From assembly GCA_034190875.2 (NCBI GenBank), contig CM067345.1, positions 27,061,019 through 27,125,018 on the forward strand: DNA of 64,000 nt. The letters are read 5' to 3'. Below are positions 4,701 through 56,639 of the stretch, piece after piece (the first letter of the stretch is position 1; the number at the start of each line of letters is the position of its first letter). The DNA comes from Urechis unicinctus (taxonomy: Eukaryota > Annelida > Polychaeta > Xenopneusta > Urechidae). The notes below the pieces were generated by a model. The model did no database searches. It was not told the origin of the DNA and saw only the letters and a list, made by a program, of their open reading frames with translations. The position numbers were made by a program, and so were the translations under genes.

Positions 4701-7700
4701 TTCCCTCCTCTCTCACTAGTCTATGCTGTGGCTCTCACGAAATGTGCCATGTTAATACTGACACAAATCTCATTTCAGTGTCTGTTATGAATGAGAAATC
4801 AAGCTTCAATGTGGACACCATTAGGATCAGTAAAATCCTGGTAAGTTTGGATATTTGCATTAAGTAAGATCTGATTGAATACATTGTTGATAAGGGATTG
4901 TATGGCATGATGGGAGGATCTTGTGCAGCCCGACTATAACCATGATGGTCAGCCTGGTTAAAGCCGGCCTGCTTTAACCATGGGTCAGCATGGTGCATGA
5001 GTTGACTGTATCATTGCTGGATTGTTACAGGGTCAGGGGGTCACAGGGTCAACTGTGATGCATGGGATGGTGTTCAAGCGAATGGTGGAAGGTGATGTGA
5101 CTAAGGCTAGCAACTGTAAGGTTGCAGTTTACTCCTGTCCCCTTGATCTCATGCAGACAGAAACCAAGGTGGGTCTACCAACAACCTCTCTTGTTTATGG
5201 TTTCGAGGCTGTGAAAGTTGTACCTTGACGCAACTATGGGTATTTAATTAAGTTTAGTTGTGACTGGCATGTTGCATGTGTTTGCTCAGGGTACAGTGAA
5301 GATAACAACAGCCCAGCAGTTGATGGACTTCAGCAAAGGAGAGGAGGAACAAGTGGAGGAGGTAGGTCCTACTCCATACAGCCATACTTTGCCCTGGTCA
5401 CATTCTCTCGCCCAATCAATGCCCTTATCTAATTTTCTCCCTCCATCCAATCAATGCCCTAATTCAATTCCTTCCTCCATAAAAAAAGCCATTATACAAT
5501 TCCTCCCTCCATCGAAAAAGCCCTTATTCTGTTTTTTCCCTCTATCCAAACAATGCCCTTATTCAATTCCTCCCTCCTTAAAAAAAACCCTTATAAATTC
5601 CTCCTTCCAAAAAAGCCCTCATTCTGTTCCCTCTCTCCCTCCCTCCCTCCATACAAACGATGCCACTATCCAATCATTTCATTCCATCCTTACAATGTAT
5701 TACTGATCCAATTCATGTATTCCACCAGAACAACTTCGCCCCCTTATCTCATAAATTCGCATTTTGTCTTTTCAGCAAATCAAATCGATTGCGGAGGCTG
5801 GCGTGAGTGTGATTGTGACCGGGGGTAAGGTGGGTGAGCTTCATCTCCACTACGCCAACCAGTACAAGCTGCTCGTTCTCAGACTCATGTCCAAGTGGGA
5901 TCTGCGTCGGCTCTGTCGCGCCATCTCTGCCACACCACTACCACGAATCGTACGAGCATCAGTCACTCCATGCATCCCAGCTTAGTGAGATAAACCTTTA
6001 CTCTGTCTGTGTGTGTAATTAGAGGCTAATGCTGTGTGTTGTTGATGCAGACCCCCCCTACCCCCGAGGAAGCCGGCCACTGTGATCAGATCCGTATGGA
6101 TGAGATCGGGGATACGCCTGTCATACTCTTCAAGCAAGGTACCCATTCTCGCTGATTGTCTCACAGAGAGAAATGAGATGTGCAACACCTGATTGTGTTA
6201 CACCTGTATCTATAACACCTGTTCTGATTGCATGTTGTGTGTATAGAGCAAGAAGAGGGTGCCATTGCTACGGTAGTTATCCGCGGTTCCAGTGACAACA
6301 TCATGGATGATATTGAGAGAGCTATCAATGACGGAGTGAACACATTCAAAGCTCTCACCAAGGTACAATCTCCTCAAACACACTCCTACAAGGTCACTGT
6401 GAGGTCAGCTGTCTGTCTGATATTGACTGATCCTTGCCATCTTAACATTACCCCTTTATGACATTAGACCGTTGAGTTATCAAAAAGATTGGCAGAGCTC
6501 CATGCCCTATCGGCCACAGAGAAATGAGATGTGCAACACCTGATTGTGTTACACCTGTATCTATAACACCTATTCTGATTGCATGTTGACCTATTGTGAT
6601 TATGTGTATGGTTTTGATGTATAGGACTCTAGGCTCGTTGCTGGGGCAGGAGCCACGGAAATCGAACTGGCCAAGAGAATCGCTTCTTATTCCCAGGTAC
6701 AACTGCATACTCCAGTAGATGTTCAATCAAAATGTGACAGCTGTTGTTATCCAGCAATTTTGTGTTTCGATTCATTTAAAGTTACAAAAGTGGTTCAAAT
6801 TAGTTGAGCCGGAAATACAACAGTTGTCACGGTTGGCTTTATCGGAGTACCATGACCTCCCATGTTGTCATTGCCATGACCTCGCATGCTGTCTTTGCCA
6901 TGAACAACCTATCTATCTGTACTGTGACCTCCCACGCTAAGTTCCATGACCTTCTAAGCTATGTACCTTGACCTCCAAAGCTTTCTATTCCATGGCCTCC
7001 CAAGCTATCTGTTCCATGACCTCCCACCCCTTCTGTACATTGATCTACCAAGCAAGATTTACCATGACCTCCCACTTTGTATCATGACCTTCCATATTAT
7101 CTCCAAAACTGTTTGAACCCCTTTCAAGGCAAGATTTTTTGCCAAAATTACCGCCTGTGACCTGTGTTAATGCCGTTATTCAGTTCCCTGACCTGAATTA
7201 AATTTGGACATCACTAAGACAAATGACCACTGAAGTTTAAAACCGTTTATTTGCAGCTTCCACTTGTAGCTACCTATACATGTCATGCATCAAAATAACT
7301 GTAAAGATCTGCAGAAGATGTGGGGCGTGGTTTGAAAGATGGCAAAGCTCGTCGTCTGTATTCTGGTTACCACAAAACAGCGTCGCCGTCGCTGTCAGAC
7401 TCAGAAGTGACAGCTCGCTGAACACTTTCGGCGCTCGATGAATCTTGCGAACTATCGCTATCAACGTCGGAATCGTCACCAATTCCTTGCTCAAAGAGCC
7501 TTCACACACGAACAGCGTCAGCTTGGGCTATTTCACCGTCATTAAAACCACCAAATTCCGCATCACTGGAGCTGATGGAATCATTGAATACCGCGCTTTC
7601 CGGCATAATGATAACCAAATCATAACCATCGTAACCTCACTTGTAATTGGATAAAACTAGTTCAAATCATGAATATTTATTATGCAAAATAACACAGAAT

Positions 7701-15000: not shown

Positions 15001-15054
15001 TTGGAACCGTCTTCAAGTTCCTAGAGGATGTTACCAACATGTTGCGGGATCCTG
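15001..15054. repeat. Left arm of a 54-bp inverted repeat
   Basis: Reverse complement of 15290-15343 with two mismatches in 54 bases. The right arm interrupts a reverse-transcriptase fragment. Confidence 0.9.
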
Positions 15055-15169
15055 AAGATGTAATTAATTTTGACTTTCAAAATACGTCCGATAAAGTTCC
15101 CCGCCAAAGGATTAGCTAGCAAACCTATTACTCACAGTAGCAGTAGTAAAGTATGGACATGGATAAATG

Positions 15170-15420
15170 AAAAAGGCTCAGTAATAGCAGGCAGAGAGTG
15201 GTGGTAAATGGCATCGAATCAGATTGGATAAGGCTTATTAGTGGTGCCCCTCAAAGGTCGGTCATGGGACCATTTACCATTTACCACCTCAGGATCCCGC
15301 AACATGTTAGTAACATCCTCTAGGAACTTCAAGACGGTTCCAAGAACTCTTCGCAATCTATGTAAATGAAATTGAGAGTACTGATGACATTACGTTAAAA
15401 TAGATAGCAGATAGCACTGA
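15170..15420 (+). pseudogene. Non-LTR retrotransposon reverse-transcriptase fragment, interrupted
   Basis: From 15177 the plus strand reads LSNSRQRVVVNG and then continues to SGAPQRSVMGP. This corresponds to the conserved RT stretch usually seen as LSNRxQRVxVNG ... SGVPQGSVLGP in LINE-type polymerases. The reading breaks after MGP at about 15275, where an inserted inverted repeat (15290-15343) begins. It resumes at 15347 as LFAIYVNEI, the expected next motif (LFxIYINDL), then decays through IADSTELQ, where FADDTKL is expected. Stops and missing ends show that it is dead. Confidence 0.8.
15290..15343. repeat. Right arm of the 54-bp inverted repeat, inside the RT fragment
   Basis: Inverted copy of 15001-15054. 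It lies exactly between the MGP and LFAIYVNE parts of the reverse-transcriptase fragment, together with a short duplicated CATTTACC tract at 15271-15285. Confidence 0.9.
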
Positions 15421-17270: not shown

Positions 17271-20200
17271 ATGTCGACGACTACAGCTCGACACCCGTTC
17301 ATGGCGCGGGAGAAACCGGCGTTCACTAGACTCTTCACGCCGACCTCGCTGGGTACTCTCATGGCGGCCGCTTTCGCTGCCTACCCGTCCTGGGATATGC
17401 CGGACACCCCGGCCGACAGTACCACCTTGCCCCTGGACATGGTGCCCGAGGCATTCGAAGCATTTACGTTCATCCCCTCCAAAGTGTACGTCGCCTTGGT
17501 TGGCTTTCTTGTCGGCTATCTGGCGTGCAAGTGGTTGGCTTGGGCCAGACTCCGCGCCTTGACAACGCTCTTCTACTACCAGGGCTGGATGCAGGATCCA
17601 AAATCTACTAAGACAAAGGTTTGTATTTTGCGGAACCATGTCTCTAACAAGCGGACGATGAAAGAGATTTCCCTGCTAAAAGGTTGTACCATTACGCTTT
17701 CTGACCTCTGACCCACTTTCCCCCCCATTCCCTTCGATCTCTTTCGGTACCAAAGACTCCTGCATCAAGTGTTCAGGTGTTGCCCCGCGAATACGAAATC
17801 AATTTTGCGCAGATATTATTCCCCGAGTAATTATGGAGCCTGGATGTGATTATCTGCGTGTCAACGAAATCCACTGAACGACCAGTGACAATGTTGTTTT
17901 CATCACACCAGCAATGTCGGGCCGTCAGGATGCTCGTATTTGTACCTAGCGCAATGTGGCGTGCTTGAGGGACAAAGAATAATTGGGTCAGGTCGAAGAG
18001 GCTTCGCGTAGCGCGTACAATCAGTCTGCGCCGCGTTGGTTGGGGACGTATACATTCTTTGATGGTGCCAAGTAGCTCTTTCAAACTAAGTACGGGAGTG
18101 ATGCATGCACTCCCTCTGACAAGGTGATAAATAGAACCTGACGTTGGTCTTTTGGGCTAGTGCCAAGGCGTGCTATAAATGGCTGCTGGCTTGTTTGGCT
18201 TAGTGTCGGTTGGGGTACGGGAGGGGCCAGCATGAAAACATTGCTTGTTTTCTTCGTTGGTCGCATACAATTGTGACAAAAGCTCTCATTGTTGGTCCAC
18301 CCGTAACCAATGGCAACCAGCGTTTACGTCCTCTTGTCACCTGAAGTTTGTGCTTTATGGTCTGGTCGCCTTTAACAACATCATGGACTCGTCCAGGGAG
18401 AAGGCCGTCCGTTGGTAAGGTGTTAACACCATACACAGCGGCGTAATTGATGGCAACCTTGCTATTTATGACCAGATCATGGGAAGGTATGCCCCACCCA
18501 CGCACACTCACCCATGTCGCGATATGCGACGGCGGATGACATACTAACCGATATATGTTACCTGTTTATAATAGTCAACAACAGACCAACAGCCAATCGG
18601 GTACGTTGTTAAGAGTCAAGAAGGAACGTCCGCAAGCTCCATTTGGTTAAAAAGAGCTAGTTTATAACCGCCACACCTGTTTCCCATTTGATGTTGCGCA
18701 CTAGCCGCGCACGACGGTAATATAAATATATACCAATAATAAGACGTCGTGCACGGCTAGTTGCGCACCTGCATGTGTTGTAGCCGTGTAGTCTTATTGA
18801 CGTCGTGCGATGATCGTAACCAAGTGCGGCGCGACAGTACATGAGTTTCAATTATACACGATAATTACACACATGTACATATGAAGAAGAATTTTTCACA
18901 TAATTGAATGTTTATTAACAAGTTGAGTTAGTTTACGTGTGAGATTCGTCAAAGGCGATTTAATCCGGCCAGACACATTTTGAAACGTTCATGTTTATTT
19001 TGAACGACAACATCGGTTTCTGCCTGCACGCGCAGACAAGGTTGTTCGCGAGCGAACCTTTTCTTTCTGAATTTTATTATATATGTGTCATTTTGTCAAT
19101 GATTATCTTTTGGAAATTCCTACTTTAGAAGGGCGATATGTATTTAACGATATCACATTGACATTGAAAAAAAGATAACACTTATTGATTCCCGCAGTCT
19201 GGAGGGGACACTTGGCGAAGTCCTGCGTAGGGGTGTGCCCCGGGATCTCAAAAACCTGTACCCGTCGTACAAGGTAAAAATGGCAAGAGCATACCCCATC
19301 CTACAAATATGAGGTCAACAAAACCCGTCCGGAGGCCGAAAAAAGCATACCCCGACATATGTAAACTACCTCTATATACTTAAGTGCCCCCTCCCCCGGG
19401 ACCTGCCGTCACATGGCGAGTGAAACTGGAACTTCGTAATGTGACGTCATATCTTCAAAACTGGGGCTGCCGCGAATGAAAGTTGTGATTCTAAAAGTTC
19501 ATTTGACAATTGCTAAATAATAACGAGACAGTGGATAACCAAAATAGGCCGCATAAGCGGATATTCATCGCATTTGTCGACATATATATTTACGTAAGTA
19601 CACAACTTGGTGGTAAGCCCCGGAGACGCAAATAACAAGAATTGCCACACGACCCACATACTTTCAGGCATGACGGTATATATTTATATTACCGTCGTGC
19701 GCGGCTACATGTGTTGGTGCAAAATTAATCCCACCCATAACTGGGCTGTTCTATTTATAGCATGATTCGTTATGGTACAATGATAGTAGGTTGTTCTTAA
19801 TTGCTTGTAGCCAGTGATTAAGTGAGACCTAAAGTGGGAGAGAAGTGGTCATGGCCTGATATGGCGGGTCGTTATTGCTGCTGCTCCTTTCCTACAAGAC
19901 AATGATCGTAGCCTCATGGCCTGATTATGACGCCGTCTCTGTGTCGCACTTCGGTAGAAGTCATTGCGTTTATCATATTTATGTAACCCAGATTTGACCG
20001 GGACTCGCTGACGTCATTGGGCAGATAGCAAACCCCCGGTATCTCTATATGAGCCAATTAACATGAGTTGTGACGTGACACCAGTCAATGTCATCTGACC
20101 CAGGGACGAGACTTGGATGTCACGCGAGGCCTATGTATGCCAATAAAAGCACGTAGACCATATCATGTGCGATTGTAGAATAGGATGGCCGCATTCATAG

Positions 20201-42263: not shown

Positions 42264-42392
42264 ATATTTGTTTCATACTTCCGTCTCAATAGCCACGTTG
42301 GGTCTTTTAATCATCTCTGACATTGAAATTTAAAAATAGCAAGTGCCAATTCCCTGCTATAACAGAATATAGATATATTGTAAGGTTTGACT

Positions 42393-42674
42393 CGCATGGA
42401 AGTCTTAACAACCGATTTATGTCGCGCAACGTGCTCTACTCGTAAACGAACAATGTGCATTTACGATCATATGTGTGTGCGCAGAACATTGCATGTATTT
42501 GATTCCCAGACGGAATCGATCATTGAATTGCCGTTTCTATTACCACAAGCAACATTTGTTTAATAGTTTTTGACAGCTTGCTTACTACCTTAAAACCTAT
42601 AAAAACACATATATCATAACGTCGAATTTTCCCATACAGCCACTTCAGCTGACTACTCTGTGCAGTACTATCTC
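42393..42674 (+). promoter_or_regulatory. Promoter and leader of the SnoaL-like gene, with TATA box at 42598-42605
   Basis: TATAAAAA at 42598-42605 lies 70-77 bases before the start codon at 42675, so transcription should begin near 42625-42635. The whole stretch is duplicated in inverted form at 46021-46276. Between the copies the TATA-proximal 165 bases differ at only about eight positions, and the match stops one base before the base adjoining the ATG. That conservation supports a discrete unit. Confidence 0.65.
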
Positions 42675-44064
42675 ATGAACACGATGTGGCGAGTTCTTAT
42701 CGGCGTAGAGTTCATTCTCTCAGCAGTAACTCTTGCAAGTGCTGATTGTCCAATCTCAGATGGCTCGGATCCAGGTAAATTAAATAATTTGTGTTTCCGG
42801 ATTATCAATGCGATCGTTCATATTTTTCAAAGTTTAAGTAGCAGCAAATTATATATTTGTGACCGGAGAGATTCAATACACACTGTATTTGTTGGTCATT
42901 AATGTTGCTGGCTTTCAAAATTGTTTCAGATCGAGCTAAGCTTGTTGAAAACATGGTTCGTGAATACGAGTCTGTATACAACCAAGGAGACATAGATGGC
43001 ATCATAGCGATGCACACTGATGATGCTTGGGTAATGGTGAACGGCGTCGATACAGCGCAGGGCAAAAATGGTGAATACCTGTATTCTCATGTTACCACAA
43101 TAGCCTCTCTCGGTGCCTGAGCTGAGCAAGGACGTGCAATAGCTATCCCCTTTGTATGTCTTCGAGCTGATTTGATCAAATGAAAACATAACCCCTATAT
43201 ATTTGCAGCTTCTATAATGTGCATATTTTAGCCACGTTTCATGGATTCGTTATGTTTCCTGTAGCTGTAAGGGCTCTTGTGGAGACGACAGTTCGCAGGG
43301 ACGCAGGGAAATATATGAAACCGAAATGCGTTGAGATCAGTAATGTCGTCGGAGAGTATGCGATTCTTATCGCAACTTACAATGCCGGATACAGGTTTGA
43401 GTCCACACTTACACATAGCCACATGTTTGATTTGATGTTGAATGACTATTTTGTAACTTATTAGTATTGATATATGGACGAGATTAGTCTCTCACAGTCC
43501 CAGGGGGCCGTGGTTCCTGTAAAGTATTTCAATGCATGGAAGTTCGATCACCGCCTGCGCTCGTTCTTGGAGGAGTGCAAGTGAAGAATCAACGACCGGC
43601 TCAGTTTAACAGCTCTCTGGGTAGTTTAACAATGGGTCATTTGAAAGGAAGATTTCTATAAATTTAGCGGGGAAACGCGTAATGTATCTGGTTGGGTGTA
43701 CGCTAGCATATTTATAAGCTGTATGTTTGCAGGGTCTTGATCCTTATCAAGTTTGAGGACGACAAACCCAAATTCTACCGTATTATGGTCAATGAGGTTT
43801 GAGTGATCGCTAACCGAAAGACCACGTAATTCGTGCAACGTCAATTTCAAGATAATCTTTGCAGTTGCTACAATAAACTATGCGTCTCCACGGTTTTTCG
43901 GTCAATATACTACAACGCATGAATACATTTAAGCCAACATTCTGACCAAACTATTTCAAAACAACGGAACAAGGGGTAATGAAGAATTAAGTGTGTAAAA
44001 TAGCATCATCATAAGGTACAATATAACAGTATATTTATGGTGCCATAGTATCTCCTTGAGACAC

Positions 44065-44139
<75 letters not shown>

Positions 44140-45032
44140 TATATATATATTTATATATATATATATGTATATATTTATATATATGTGTATATATTAATAA
44201 CCATGAGTGCGCTATCACAACATTACATCGAAGCCTAAAATATAATTTTAAACAAGCACGGTACTTGCCCTGGTCGCGAGCATTGTATCCAATAAGACTT
44301 CGATAAACTTTGTTGTTTGCTGCTCAGGTCCTAGTGTATGTGTTTTTCTTAAATATGGTCCACATATATGAGTAACAAAATGTGTATATAAACCAGTAGT
44401 CGGGCGAGCCTTAACCGGAAGGGAATATTTTCCCTATTGCGAAAAAGAGTGAATAAGCTGGAGTGGGCAGTTTTCTTATTGGACGTGGCAAACCGTCGTT
44501 CTCGTGTCGGTCGTCCCTGAAGAAATGTGCAAGGGTATTTTTGCATACTGAATTATATTGCGACCAAGATACTTCGACGTATTCAACAATTTACGAGCGG
44601 TCGGATTGGTTGGCGCTAAATTTAACGCAGATGTCGAGCAAATTCTGAGGACAGTTAGACCTTAAAAGTTGTGGAAACCGAGATCCATCGAATATGTACC
44701 GGACATGAAAGCACAAATGACAATGGTACTAGTAGGCATTCCAGTGCCTGGCTTTTTAAGCACTTTATCCTAATTCTTCGGTAAATGATAATTACTCATT
44801 AAGTTCTGCTTGTTTCTGAAAGGAGTTCCTATCGACTGAAAAGTTCCACATCTACCATCATATTGCGAATATTGGGGCTTTCAAGAAGCATGTCGAGAGA
44901 CCGGATGGACCTCCGCATGTCGAGAAACCGGATGGACCTCCGCTATGTATGATCCATGTTTACGAAGACAAATACACTTACATGGAAGACGATATCATTT
45001 CGGTCAGGGGGCAATACCGCCTCATTGTCTAA
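42675..45032 (+). CDS. Secreted SnoaL/NTF2-fold (ketosteroid-isomerase-like) protein, five exons
   Basis: Small secreted protein of the SnoaL/DUF4440-like NTF2 fold. Exons read: 42675-42774, 42930-43070, 43265-43394, 43733-43796, 44823-45032; phases 1,1,2,0 all agree, giving 214 aa. Residues 1-23 are a signal peptide ([20 protein letters not shown], then DCPIS). The helix [20 protein letters not shown], the following [15 protein letters not shown], and the later strands [14 protein letters not shown] and [20 protein letters not shown] match the order of the fold. Exon 5 is less family-like and contains an in-frame 27-base duplication (HVERPDGPP then HVEKPDGPP). Substrate and role are unknown. 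Some members of the fold are enzymes, others bind ligands. Exon 5 membership is the weakest call because intron 4 is about 1 kb and includes an AT microsatellite. Confidence 0.78.
44070..44195. repeat. (TA)n microsatellite within intron 4 of the SnoaL-like gene
   Basis: Long near-pure TA run with a few CA and TG interruptions. Confidence 0.97.
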
Positions 45033-45574
45033 GTGGAAAGGTTTGTGAAACTGGTTCTATCAAGACATAGCACCAGAAATTCGATTGAATAATAACGAAT
45101 CTTGAATATTCAGAATCATGACTGTATCTGCACTGGATCGTACTTCCCGAGTAGCTTCTACTCTCTACCGCATTATCATCCAAATTCCACAGGTCAATGC
45201 CCGTTTCCCTTGGAACCTTTACGTAAGCTTATCATGCAATCAATCATGAGGGATTTCGAGCTAATTTACCAAATTTTAACAAGATACAAAATTGCCAGTA
45301 TATCGACCGATTGGCGATGGTCTGCCAAAGCAATTATCTTTGGATGAATATAAAGATTTTCCCTGTTCTCTCTATCTTGGCATGTTGTTATTTTGCTAGC
45401 TGTGCGCGATCACTGCCATATCGTGATGACATTATGATGACAAACATTATAACGTGAACGCCCTATGATAACACGCGGATGAATCGAAAGGTGAATATAT
45501 ATTATATTTAATGGATAAAATGACGATGTATCAGTTTGAAATAACCTCCTTTATACACACAGTCGGATTGGGCA

Positions 45575-45722
45575 GAGTGGGGTGAGTGGGGTGAGTGGGG
45601 AGAGTGGGGAGAGTGGGGAGGGGAGAGTGGGGAGAGTGGGGAGAGTGGGGAGAGAGTGGAGTGGGGAGAGAGGGGAGAGTGAGTGGGGAGAGGGGGAGAG
45701 TGGGGAGAGGGGGAGAGTGGGA
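45575..45722 (+). repeat. GA-rich low-complexity tract (GAGTGGGGA)n
   Basis: Purine-only strand built from GAGTGGGGA and GAGGGGGA words. Such tracts can form triplex or G-rich structures. It lies between the SnoaL-like gene and the inverted promoter copy. Confidence 0.9.
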
Positions 45723-46020
45723 TTCAAATGAAACCCCCGCCTCCCGACCACCACCCTCCCTTTTTTAATATAATGAAAAGACATGTGAAAATCCATATAG
45801 TTAGGAGCTGGAGGGGGGAGGGGGTCCCATCCATCCACCAGAACTAGGCACTTACTCATCGTCTTCGTTAATGTTGCTAGGCCACTCCCAACTCCCAGCT
45901 CATCAGGCAGATGTTTTTGCGTAAATGTATTATTAAATGCAGGGCAGTTGTTTGGGTGCTTCACTTGATAATAAGAGAAGGCAGTTGCTTTGGTGATTCA
46001 ATTGATGATAAGAAGTAGGC

Positions 46021-46276
46021 AGATAGTACTGCACGGAGTAGTCAGCTGTAGTGGCTGTATGGGAGAATTCGACGTTATGATATATGTGCTTTTATGGGTT
46101 TTAAGGTAAGTAAGCAAGCTGTCAAAACCATTAAACAAATGTTGCTTGTGGTAATAGAAACGGCAATTCAATGATCGATTCCGTCTGGGAATCAAAAACA
46201 TGTTCTGCGCACACACATATTGGGGTGAACTTACATGCACGAGTATAGACACGAGGCTGTTAAGACTTCCATGCGG
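46021..46276 (-). promoter_or_regulatory. Inverted duplicate of the SnoaL-like gene promoter and leader
   Basis: Reverse complement of 42393-42673. The TATA-proximal 165 bases are about 95% identical by hand count; the distal part is more diverged and about 25 bases shorter. The TATA box has changed from TATAAAAA to CATAAAAG. No signal-peptide exon follows on the minus strand, because similarity ends just before the start codon. Transcripts from this copy would run leftward, antisense to the SnoaL-like gene. Confidence 0.85.
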
Positions 46277-48450
46277 TATATTATTACCCAACGTCTAATC
46301 CTATTATAAATACAAATAACTAAAATAATGCAATGCACACAATAATTTCATCCGCCTCTGTAATAGGCGGGTTATTGATGATACAGTTAGATACATTGAC
46401 TCTTTCTGTGGGGATGATGTCATCCTATCTGGAGGGGTGCAATGGGATAGAGTATTGGATGGGCCATGGGGTGAGGCATGGGGTGAGGCATGGGGTGAGC
46501 GTAAGTTGGGGCATGCCTAGAAGTTGTTATATTAACACGTGCCTTATGTATGTTGTCGTCGTTGCAATAGACAAGTTATTGCCGGGCGTCGTGTCTAGTG
46601 TTCTATCGGCCGGATCTCCGCGGGCGGATTATTTTATAATGCATTCATTCCCACGCCTAACCTCCCACGCCACGATTGATTGTCTCCTTGCAAACCAATT
46701 AATCTAACTACGGGGCGCTGTAGCCAGGGGTGCCGTGTAGCAGTATACCGAAAGTGATCAGTAAGCCTTGTTTTGTAACGGAACATATAAAAAACTTCTG
46801 TGCTAATCTATTGATTCTTGAGCCAGTTTGCAGCTGACATCGAAATGGTGTCCAGGATAAGATGAGTGACAGGGTTGTATAAGATGAAGGGACTCGTGAA
46901 AGATCTGCCAGGTTTTGGCTGTACAAATGCAGCTCGAATATAACATCAATGTAAATTAGGATCAGATCAGAAGATTCTGCTGCTGAATATTCATTAAATG
47001 AACAACTTAAACCACAAAACAAAAGCAAACTAGGCCTGCTCTGACTAAGATGGACTTATGCTGGAAGTATCATTGATGGCTTTATCTCGACTACCTCTCG
47101 TGAGAAATCTGGTTTCGCACCAATTGCTCCAGTGATGTTGTATCAGCAGTATGTATGTCAGTGCATCGGCGTGATAGTATGCTTATTTCGTATCCAATAA
47201 AGCATATACAGCGCAAGATGTTAGACACCATTCAATGTGTTCTGATATAAATCATACACTTCTTAGCTGGGGCTAATCAAGATTATATTAAGGTGTTACG
47301 TTATGCTTATCCTTGCATAGAGAGGGTGTGTCAACGGCTTAAAACAGCTTAAGGTTGTACACAAATGCAATCAACGCACTATAAAGTCAGTTAGATAACC
47401 CGACCTGTCGGTTTCTTGCCATCAACATCATTTACCTGTTTTATGGAACAAATATCAAGAGTTATGCTGTAATCAAGACATGATAGCGAGGCTGCTTATG
47501 GGTCCTTGGGTACTGAAAGACCGGTATAGGCGATCCTCCAAACTGTATTTCGTTATGCGTCTTTAAGTTTAATCAGATCTAACGTACACTTAGCTTTATT
47601 TGCCACCTCCACGTTGACCACTGGCTCTTCTTGTCATTGCCATCAATCCTGCCCAGTGAATGTCTGGGCTATGGCCATACTACATCCATGCAGTGAGTGA
47701 GGAAGCAGAGACGCCTCGAGATCATCGCTAATGAATGTCACATCAGTGGGAACACTTCCGTCGGGGTGGGGGGGGGGGGGAGATTGGGCTATTCCATATT
47801 TGTATCATCCGCATGGTAATTAGTGATATTCCTTTTACCGCTTATTTTTTAACTTGCCCTCAACAGGCAGTTGGGCGGCTTAAAGAAATCAAAGGAAAGC
47901 TTGTATTGCAATGCACTGATGTATGTCTCTTATGATTAGTTACCCTACAGTTTTAACAAACTAAGGTTTGTTGGCTTCAAGATAGCCTTGTTAAGAGTCA
48001 CGTTAGAATGTGCTTAATGATTGTTGTTTTGGAAATATAGATTCAACCCTTTAATGTATAGTCGACTACATATAAAGTCCATCCGAAAATGATAACACTG
48101 TTTATTGAATGCCATCAAAATGCACAAATGGTGATAGTACAACAAATACAAATGTAGACAAAAATAACGTATTAACCATGAATTACTATTCATTTGATTT
48201 GTAGTCAAATTCAGTCGTACCCTTCTCGCTTGGGTTCGATACCCTTACAACCAACTCCAGTGCGTTGAGCCACTAATGTCAGTAGACATACCACGTTACA
48301 ACAGCGCAGAGATCAAGTGAATTCAACTAACCCCAGGGTGAGTTGTTTACGATACCCAGTCCGCCTGTCTGACGAGGGGAATTAAGATATGTTATCTGAA
48401 TCCACAGCCAGAATACAACGCGAATCGCTGCACTTACACAACTATTCATG
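46277..48450. other. Intergenic, no gene seen
   Basis: Short open frames only. Minor low-complexity items are a GGGTGAGGCAT triplication near 46470-46500 and a G run at 47767-47780. Confidence 0.55.
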
Positions 48451-51781: not shown

Positions 51782-54700
51782 GTGGTTGTGTGGTAGCGGT
51801 CACATTGGAACAGACTGATAATCGAGCTGGTTGAGTGGTACTGGTTACATTGGAACAGACTGAATCGAGCTGGTTGAGTGGTACCGGTTACATTGGAGCA
51901 GACTGAAACGAGCTGGTTGTGTGGTAGCGGTTACATTGGAGCAGACTGAATCGAGCTGGTTGAGTGGTAGCGGTTACATTGGAACAGACTGAATCGGAGC
52001 GGTTACAATGGACAGACTGAATCGAGCTGGTTGAGTGGTAGCGGTTACATTGGAGCAGACTGAATCGAGCTGGTTGAGTGGTAGCGGTTACGGTTACATT
52101 GGAACAGACTGAATCGAGCTGGTTGAGTTGTGGTAGTGGTAGCGGTTACATTGGAACAGACTGAATCGAGCTGGTTGAGTGGTAGCGGTTACATTGGAAC
52201 AGACTGAATCGAGCTGGTTGAGTGGTAGCGGTTACATGGAACAGACTGAATCGAGCTGGTTGAGTGGTAGCGGTTACATTGGAACAGACAATCGACTGAG
52301 TGGTAGCGGTTACATTGGAGCTGAATCGAGCTGGTTGAGTGGTAGCGGTTACATTGGAACAGACTGAATCGAGCTGGTTGAGTGGTAGCGGTTACATTGG
52401 AACAGACTGAATCGAGCTGGTTGAGTGGTAGCGGTTACTGGTTGAATCGTGGTTGAGTGGTAGGTTTACATTGGAACAGACTGAATCGAGCGAGTGGTAG
52501 CGAGCTGGTTGAGTGGTAGCGGTTACATTGGAACAGACTGAATCGAGCTGGTTGAGTTACATTGGAACAGACTGAATCGAGCTGGTTGAGTGGTAGCGGT
52601 TACATTGGAACAGACTGAATCGAGCTGGTTGAGTGGTAGCGGTTACATTGGAACAGACTGAATCGAGCTGGTTGAGTGGTAGCGGTTACATTGGAACAGA
52701 CTGAATCGAGCTGGTTGAGTGGGTAGGTTACATTGGAACAGACTTACATTGGAGCAGACTGAATCGAATCGAGCTGGTTGAGTGGTAGCGGTTACATTGG
52801 AACAGACTGAATCGAGCTGGTTGAGTGGTAGCGGTTACATTGGAACAGACTGAATCGAGCTGGTTGAGTGGTAGCGGTTACATTGGAACAGACTGAATCG
52901 AGCTGGTTGAGTGGTAGCGGTTACATTGGAACAGACTGAATCGAGCTGGTTGAGTGGTAGCGGTTACATTGGAACAGACTGAATCGAGCGAGCTGGTTGA
53001 GTGGTAGCGGTTACATGGAACAGACTGAATCGAGCTGGTTGAGTGGTAGCGGTTACATTGGACAGACTGAATCGAGCTGGTTGAGTGGTAGCGGTTACAT
53101 GGAAACAGACTGACTGAATCGAGCTGGTTGAGTGGTAGCGGTTACAATGGAACAGACTGAATCGAGCTGGTTGAGTGGTAGCGGTTACATTGGAACAGAC
53201 TGAATCGAGCTGGTTGAGTGGTACCGGTTACATTGGAACAGACTGAATCGAGCTGGTTGAGTGGTAGCGGTTACAATGGAACAGACTGAATCGAGCTGGT
53301 TGAGTGGTAGCGGTTACATTGGAACAGACTGAATCGAGCTGGTTGAGTGGTAACAGACTGAATCGAGGTTACATTGGTACAACAGACTGAATCGAGCTGG
53401 TTGAGTGGTAGCGGTTACATTGGAACAGACTGAAGCGAGCTGGTTGAGTGGTAGCGGTTACATTGGAACAGACTGAATCGGAGGAACAGACTGAATCGAG
53501 CTGGTTGAGTGGTAGCATTGTTAACAGACTGAATCGAGCTGGTTGAGTGGTAGCGGTTACATTGGAACAGACTGAAACGAGCTGGTTGAGTGGTACCGGT
53601 TACAATGGAACAGACTGAATCGAGCTGGTTGAGTGGTAGCGGTTACATTGGAACAGACTGAATCGAGCTGGTTGAGTGGTAGCGGTTACAATGGAACAGA
53701 CTGAATCGAGCTGGTTGAGTGGTTACATTGGAACAGACTGAATCGAGCTGGTTGAGTGGTAGCGTTACATTGGAACAGACTGAATCGAGCTGGAGAGTGG
53801 TTGAGTGGTAACATACGGTACGGTTACAATGGAACAGACTGAATCGAGCTGGTTGAGTGGTAGCGGTTACATTGGAACAGACTGAATCGAGCTGGTTGAG
53901 TGGTAGTGGTAGCGGTTAGTGGTAGCGGTTACAATGGAACAGACTGAATCGAGCTGGTTGAGTGGTAGCGGTTACAATTGGACAGACTGAATCGAGCTGG
54001 TTGAGTGGTAGCGGTTACATTGGAACAGACTGAAGCGAGGTTACGGTTACATTGGAACAGACTGAATCGAGCTGGTTGAGTGGTAGAATCGGTTTGAGTG
54101 GGGAACAGACTGAAAGCGAGCTGGTTGAGTGGTCGGCATTACATTGAAACAGACTGAATCGAGCTGGTTGAGTGGTTGAGTGGTAGCGGTTACATTGGAA
54201 CAGACTGAATCGAGCTGGTTGAGTAGCGGTTACATTGGAACAGACTGATCGAGCTGGTTGAGTGGTAGCGGTTACTATGGAACAGACTGAATCGAGCTGG
54301 TTGAGTGGTAGCGGTTACATTGGAACAGACTGAATCGAGCTGGTTGAGTGGTAGCGGTTACATTGGAACAGACTGAATCGAGCTGGTTGAGTGGTAGCGG
54401 TTACATTGGACTGAATCGAGCTGGTTGAGTGGTAGCGGTTACATTGGAACAGACTGAATCGAGCTGGTTGAGTGGTAGCGGTTACATTGGAACAGACTGA
54501 ATCGAGCTGGTTGAGTGGTAGCGGTTACATTGGAACAGACTGAAACAGAGCGGTTACATTGGAACAGACTGAATCGAGCTGGTTGAGTGGTAGCGGTACA
54601 TTGGAACAGACTGAATCGAGCTTTGAGTGGTAGCGGTTACATTGGAACAGACTGAATCGAGCTGGTTGAACAGACTGAATCGAGCTGGTTGAGTGGTAGC

Positions 54701-56625
54701 GGTTACATTGGAACAGACTGAATCGAGCTGGTTGAGTGGTAGCGGTTACATTGGAACAGACTGAATCGAGCTGGTTGAGTGGTAGCGGTTACAATGGAAC
54801 AGACTGAATCGAGCTGGTTGAGTGGTAGCGGTTACAATGGAACAGACTGAATCGAGCTGGTTGAGTGGTAGCGGTTACTATGGAACAGACTGAATCGAGC
54901 TGGTTGAGTGGTAGCGGTTACATTGGAACAGACTGAAACGAGACTGGTAATCGAGCTGGTTGAGTGGTAGCGGTTACATGGAACAGACAATCGACGGTTA
55001 CATTGAAACAGACTGAATCGAGCTGGTTGAGTGGTAGCGGTTACATTGGAACAGACTGAATCGAGCTGGTTGAGTGGTAGCGGTTACATTGGAACAGACT
55101 GAATCGAGCTGGTTGAAGCGGTTACATTGGAACAGACTGAAACGAGCTGGTTGAGTGGTAGCGGTTACATTGGAACAGACTGAATCGAGCTGGTACAGTG
55201 GTAACAGGGAACAGACTGAATGGTTGAGTGGTAGCGGTTACATTGGAACAGACCGAATCGAGCTGGTTGAGTGGTACCGGTTACATTGGAACAGACTGAA
55301 TCGAGCTGGTTGAGTGGTAGCGGTTACAATAGAACAGACTGAATCGAGCTGGTTGAGTGGTACCGGTTACATTGGAACCGACTGAAACGAGCTGGTTGAG
55401 TGGTAGCGGTTACAATGGAACAGACTGAATCAAGCTGGTTGAGTGGTAGCGGTTACATTGGAACAGACTGAATCGAGCTGGTTGAGTGGTAGCGGTTACA
55501 ATGGAACAGACTGAATCGAGCTGGTTGAGTGGTAGCGGTTACATTGGAACAGACTGAATCGAGCTGGTTGAGTGGTAGCGGTTACATTGGAACAGACTGA
55601 AACGAGCTGGTTGAGTGGTAGCGGTTACATTGGAACATACTGAAGCGAGCTGGTTGAGTGGTAGCGGTTACAATGGAACAGACTGAATCGAGCTGGTTGA
55701 GTGGTAGCGGTTACATTGGAACATACTGAAGCGAGCTGGTTGAGTGGTACCGGTTACATTGGAACAGACTGAAACGAGCTGGTTGAGTGGTAGCGGTTAC
55801 AATAGAACAGACTGAATCGAGCTGGTTGAGTGGTAGCGGTTACATTGGAACATACTGAAGCGAGCTGGTTGAGTTGTACCGGTTACAATGGAACAGACTG
55901 AATCGAGCTGGTTGAGTGGTAGCGGTAACATTGGAACAGACTTAATCGAGCTGCTTGAGTGGTATGGTTACATTGGAACAGACTGAATCGAGCTGGTTGA
56001 GTGGTACCGGTTACGATGGAACAGACTGAATCGAGCTGGTTGGGTGGTACCGGTTACGATAGAACAGACTGAATCGAGCTGGTTGAGTGGTAGCGGTTTC
56101 AATAGAACAGACTGAATCGAGCTGGTTGAGTGGTAGCGGTTACATTGGAACAGACTGAATCGAGCTGGTTGAGTGGTAGCGGTTACAATAGAACAGACTG
56201 AATCGAGCTGGTTGAGTGGTAGCGGTTGCGATTGAACAGACTGAATCGAGCTGATTGAGTGGTAGCGGTTACAATAGAACTGACTGAATCGAGCTGGTTG
56301 AGTGGTAGCGGTTACAATAGAACAGACTGAATCGAGCTGGTTGAGTGGTACCGGTTACAATAGAACTGACTGAATCGAGCTGGTTGAGTGGTAGCGGTTA
56401 CAATAGAACAGACTGAATCGAGCTGGTTGAGTGGTACCGGTAACATTGGAACAGACTGAATCGAGCTGGTTGAGTGGTACCGGTTACATTGGAACAGGCT
56501 GAATCGAGCTGGTTGAGTGGTAGCGGTTACATTGGAACAGACTGAATCGAGCTGGTTGAGTGGTAGCGGTTACATTGGAACAGACTGATTCGAGCTGGTT
56601 GAGTGGTACCGGTGACAATGGTAAG
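51782..56625 (+). repeat. Large minisatellite/satellite array, 43-bp unit, about 110 copies
   Basis: Unit: GAATCGAGCTGGTTGAGTGG then TAGCGGTTACATTGGAACAG then ACT. The left part is homogeneous. The middle (about 53340-54130 and 54940-55240) has many truncated or fused units. The right part (55300-56600) is enriched for variants (ACCGG for AGCGG, AATAGAACAG for ATTGGAACAG). The unit is not divisible by three, so there is no coding potential. Confidence 0.97.
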
Positions 56626-56639
56626 AGTGACGGGGTATG

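Follow-up and report, generated by a model that had tools for sequence, protein, structure and literature searches.

The window, by which we mean the whole stretch of 64,000 nucleotides that was analyzed, carries on its plus strand a conceptual four-exon gene that would encode a 146-aa NTF2/SnoaL-like protein, with GT/AG at all three introns and a stop codon present. A putative promoter and leader (copy A) lies directly upstream of the coding sequence. A second copy of this piece (copy B), inverted and without a coding exon, lies at a distance of 3.35 kb on the other side of the gene. The features of the locus are as follows:

42393-42673, plus strand: copy A, the putative promoter and leader of the SnoaL-like gene (from alignment to copy B)
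42598-42605, plus strand: TATA box of copy A, TATAAAAA
42675-42774, plus strand: exon 1, conceptual, with an N terminus that looks signal-peptide-like by eye; a donor GT follows (script translation)
42930-43070, plus strand: exon 2, conceptual
43265-43394, plus strand: exon 3, conceptual
43733-43802, plus strand: exon 4, conceptual, to the stop codon (TGA 43800-43802)
45569-45721, no strand: GA-rich tandem tract with a 9-base unit, between the gene and copy B (TRF)
45943-46022, no strand: 37-base tandem repeat, 2.1 copies, which meets the inner edge of copy B with a 2-base overlap (TRF)
46021-46275, minus strand: copy B, the inverted orphan copy of the putative promoter and leader (from alignment to copy A)
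46089-46096, minus strand: CATAAAAG, which occupies the TATA-box position of copy B

An AATAAA motif at 43872 lies 3' of the stop codon of the gene. Codon 4 is a second in-frame ATG, so that translation from the first ATG (42675) is presumed. A SnoaL-like identity of the predicted protein is plausible to likely, although its match to the Pfam family SnoaL_2 (24.0 bits) falls under the gathering cut-off of 27. In the PDB, the predicted protein matches 37 sequences at E values up to 1; a designed apixaban-binding protein ranks first (E 4.9e-5), and steroid delta-isomerases and other proteins come next, starting at E 9.9e-4. A scan of genome contigs for bacterial and archaeal relatives of the protein returned 25 pattern-matching stretches, none of which was confirmed. 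Further open frames were observed in the vicinity. On the minus strand, a frame at 38766-38936 matches serine carboxypeptidase (Peptidase_S10, 57.7 bits) and is probably one exon, and a long frame at 49657-50901 matches rhodopsin-type GPCRs (7tm_1, E 7.5e-38). On the plus strand, a 70-aa open frame with a 27-base in-frame tandem duplication (44820-45032) looks exon-like and has no Pfam match.

Local alignment and self-comparison of the window pair copy A, at 42393-42673 on the plus strand, with copy B, read from 46275 to 46021 on the minus strand. The core of this match (42469-42673 against 46220-46021) spans 206 columns at 93.7% identity in a BLAST self-search of the whole window (E 4.6e-82), which is far above background and bears out the inverted duplicate reported in the first-pass annotation. 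In a separate global alignment of the core, 192 of the 206 columns were identical, with seven substitutions and three indel events of 5, 1 and 1 bases; the substitution divergence is thus 7 in 199 paired columns (3.5%). The promoter-proximal 166 bases (42508-42673) contain six of these substitutions and two one-base indels, in agreement with the figure of about eight differences in 165 bases given previously. Distal to the core, an exact 18-base block (42393-42410) can be found inside a 21-base BLAST piece (95%, E 8e-4), and the stretch between this piece and the core is rearranged, occupying about 55 bases in A (42414-42468) and about 34 in B (46221-46254). The spans first proposed (42393-42673 and 46021-46276) therefore stand as an inverted match with copy B ending at 46275, not 46276, while the description of a full 281-base match holds for the core and the 18-base distal anchor and is overstated for 42414-42468. 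Position and sequence both support the view that a promoter and leader were duplicated in inverted orientation and face the gene, with the promoter itself remaining putative. The self-search of the 64-kb window found no third copy of A or B; the remaining matches had E values of 0.48 or worse.

Beyond the ends of the two copies, similarity was within the shuffled range in five out of five flank comparisons. They compared 42674-43900, which holds the gene, with 44200-45560 and with 45725-46020, both reversed, and the initial 350 bases on the gene side with 45726-46020; the two upstream flanks were covered as well, and the comparisons skipped an AT-repeat/low-complexity tract (43901-44199) and the GA tract (45561-45724). 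Since the flank scores were no better than those of shuffles, the gene-side limit of the duplication is 42673, just before the ATG at 42675 and with a single base between, as had been noted from the sequence. That the copied piece ends at this point is most likely a coincidence. The 37-base repeat was not found above shuffles at the left flank (42300-42392), at the outer flank of B or at the start of the gene (six out of six comparisons). The edge sequences of each copy, taken over 14-18 bases, share no 4- to 6-mers that could represent a target-site duplication, and no inverted repeat of at least 14 bases occurs within 45500-47600.

The first-pass annotation had also proposed that copy B could be what remains of a tail-to-tail paralogue. 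A tblastn search of the window with the predicted protein recovered its own four exons and 11 other matches with E values of 1.4 or worse, none of which falls between 43900 and 46275. The alignments of the gene to the reversed 44200-45560 and 45725-46020, which would reveal a coding or intron remnant, likewise scored no better than shuffles. The coding part is missing at copy B, and the absence of coding or intron similarity beside it leaves the paralogue remnant unsupported.

Copy B carries CATAAAAG where copy A has TATAAAAA, confirming the change in the TATA box that had been described, and this variant box has a further change, A to G, at its last base. The usual distance from a TATA box to the transcription start is 30 bases, which places the expected starts near 42628 in A and 46066 in B. 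Two of the seven substitutions fall in the 8-base TATA box, that is, in 8 of the 199 columns (P 0.027, for a test chosen after seeing the data), an excess that would be in keeping with lost constraint. The sequence CATAAAAG is a natural TATA variant that is often weaker. In the sections of PMC3570547 that deal with it, CATAAAA is named as the TATA box that human beta- and delta-globin naturally carry, with effects that range from little change in yeast TBP binding to 3-fold and 40-fold lower transcription. The earlier suggestion that the box of copy B may be weakened is therefore reasonable, but it is not certain, as the published effects vary so widely.

An antisense RNA that starts in copy B and crosses the GA tract and the gene is possible. 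The promoter layout is kept in B, its box is a variant that occurs naturally (PMC3570547), and AATAAA is absent from the minus strand between 46060 and 42601. However, the further A to G change adds to the variant TATA box, and ATTAAA motifs at 45769 and 45512 lie ~300 and ~550 bases past the expected start. GTRAGT donors can be found on the path of such an RNA at 45855, 44981, 43412 and 43380. Taken from these sequence features, it appears very unlikely that copy B is an active antisense promoter that would regulate the gene by transcription across it. We also considered an RNA-structured leader and rejected it, as neither leader folded better than its shuffled versions (z 0.98 and 0.52). The window contained no match to Rfam at the gathering cut-offs.

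With 16470 bases of tandem arrays masked, the window was searched for duplicate pairs at an E threshold of 1e-4, with 20 shuffles as control. Seven non-tandem pairs were found (four inverted and three direct), compared with none in each of the 20 shuffles, which makes short local duplications a background feature of the window. The pair formed by A and B is the longest of the seven, with 204 columns in the masked search, almost three times the 74 of the next. Two of the three direct pairs are nearly tandem, with 16 and 84 bases between their members. Of the remaining six pairs, three had their edges inspected. Pairs elsewhere in the window include a 74-base direct pair at 97% identity, about 280 bases apart (6164-6237 and 6515-6588); a 55-base inverted pair at 96%, 234 bases apart, which could be a small inverted-repeat element (15001-15055 and 15289-15343); a 45-base inverted pair at 98%, 17.7 kb apart (295-339 and 18073-18117); and an inverted pair of 33 identical bases whose members are separated by about 940 bases (18702-18734 and 19675-19707). 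A large tandem array occupies 51783-56630; the distances between its self-matches point to a unit of about 43 bases.

Our preferred reading, to which we assign a probability of about 0.5, is that a short templated inverted duplication of recent date gave rise to copy B, which would be an orphaned promoter with its leader, probably inert or weakly antisense. In this event the region upstream of the SnoaL-like gene would have been copied in inverted orientation, either by template switching or because a break captured a copied strand from nearby, and the copied piece would have been joined beside the 37-base tandem repeat, 3.35 kb from A. Lacking the coding exon, copy B would probably be inert, or at most provide a weak minus-strand start for a non-coding RNA. 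The bounded ends of the copy, the absence of a coding remnant beside B and the absence of a 4-6-base target-site duplication argue for such an origin, as does the presence of seven non-tandem pairs, which indicates that events of this kind are not rare in the window. Direct pairs are not made by inversions, and they favour a copying mechanism; they do so weakly, and mainly through the single pair at 6164/6515, as the other two are nearly tandem. We infer that the duplication is recent, provided that the window is amphioxus DNA, because the divergence of 7 in 199 columns is near the amphioxus heterozygosity of 3.2-4.2% quoted in PMC12500494. Templated inverted duplications at double-strand breaks resemble the pair described here in being local, inverted, bounded and high-identity copies of nearby sequence. 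Those documented in yeast foldback events, as far as the results summarized in PMC11724301 extend, are mostly 5-34 bases long, whereas the copy at this locus is far longer (255-281 bases) and lies 3.35 kb away from its source. A rearranged distal part with a kept 18-base end is also odd for one simple copying event.

The main rival to templated duplication is a micro-inversion with staggered breaks, which we regard as possible but rather less probable. The gene would originally have been encoded on the minus strand, with B as its promoter; after staggered breaks through that promoter, the inversion of ~3.35 kb would have carried a filled-in copy, A, along with the gene and left B behind as the original promoter site. 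This would explain both the full promoter at the gene and the lack of a coding part at B. Staggered breaks are reported to leave inverted duplicates at inversion breakpoints in Drosophila, and in the D. subobscura cases described in PMC5080602 an inverted duplicate sits at both ends of the inverted segment, just as A and B sit inverted at the two ends of 42674-46020. That geometry is weak evidence, since any inverted pair flanks a segment, and, unlike in D. subobscura, the segment here is merely 3.35 kb long and no uninverted arrangement is known. In amphioxus, translocations and inversions are put at ~30 times the human-chimpanzee rate (PMC12500494, citing Huang et al., 2014). A different mechanism would still be needed for the three direct pairs in the window, even if two of them are nearly tandem. 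At the left flank (42300-42392), the 37-base repeat that adjoins B does not rise above shuffles, but a micro-inversion does not require it to be there.

A transposable element that left both A and B as fragments, with one of them later recruited as the gene's promoter, is an unlikely source. Bounded ends and the tandem repeat that meets B would suit an element; only two copies occur in 64 kb, however, neither copy has a target-site duplication of 4-6 bases, 45500-47600 contains no inverted repeat of at least 14 bases, and Rfam gave no match at its gathering cut-offs. Some classes of element leave no target-site duplication or shorter ones. Haplotype duplications, for their part, are usually kilobase-sized and not inverted, whereas copy B is an inverted piece of about 255-281 bases with flanks unlike those of A. 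An assembly or haplotype artefact, in which a fragment of the other allele was misplaced and inverted, is therefore highly doubtful, even if A and B diverge by about as much as amphioxus alleles do (PMC12500494). The near-identical promoters that face inward, with homology that ends one base before the ATG, also call to mind a flip-flop cassette, in which recombination between A and B would invert the gene while leaving it joined to a promoter in other regulatory surroundings. An arm of 206 columns at 93% identity is short for recurrent inversion between repeats, and we consider this the most far-fetched of the readings. Inversions between inverted repeats do recur in humans, according to the portion of PMC3961182 on such events.

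In conclusion, copy B is real and looks recent, and it most likely remained behind after DNA was copied or repaired, instead of serving as an antisense switch. Among the literature matches listed (titles and abstract openings), we found no work that deals with this locus or with a promoter pair of this kind. As a repair scar, copy B would provide one more example of how short dispersed duplications originate. Under a micro-inversion or a flip-flop cassette, the locus would show a gene changing strand without loss of its promoter, and under the latter both orientations could be functional, segregate and differ in expression.
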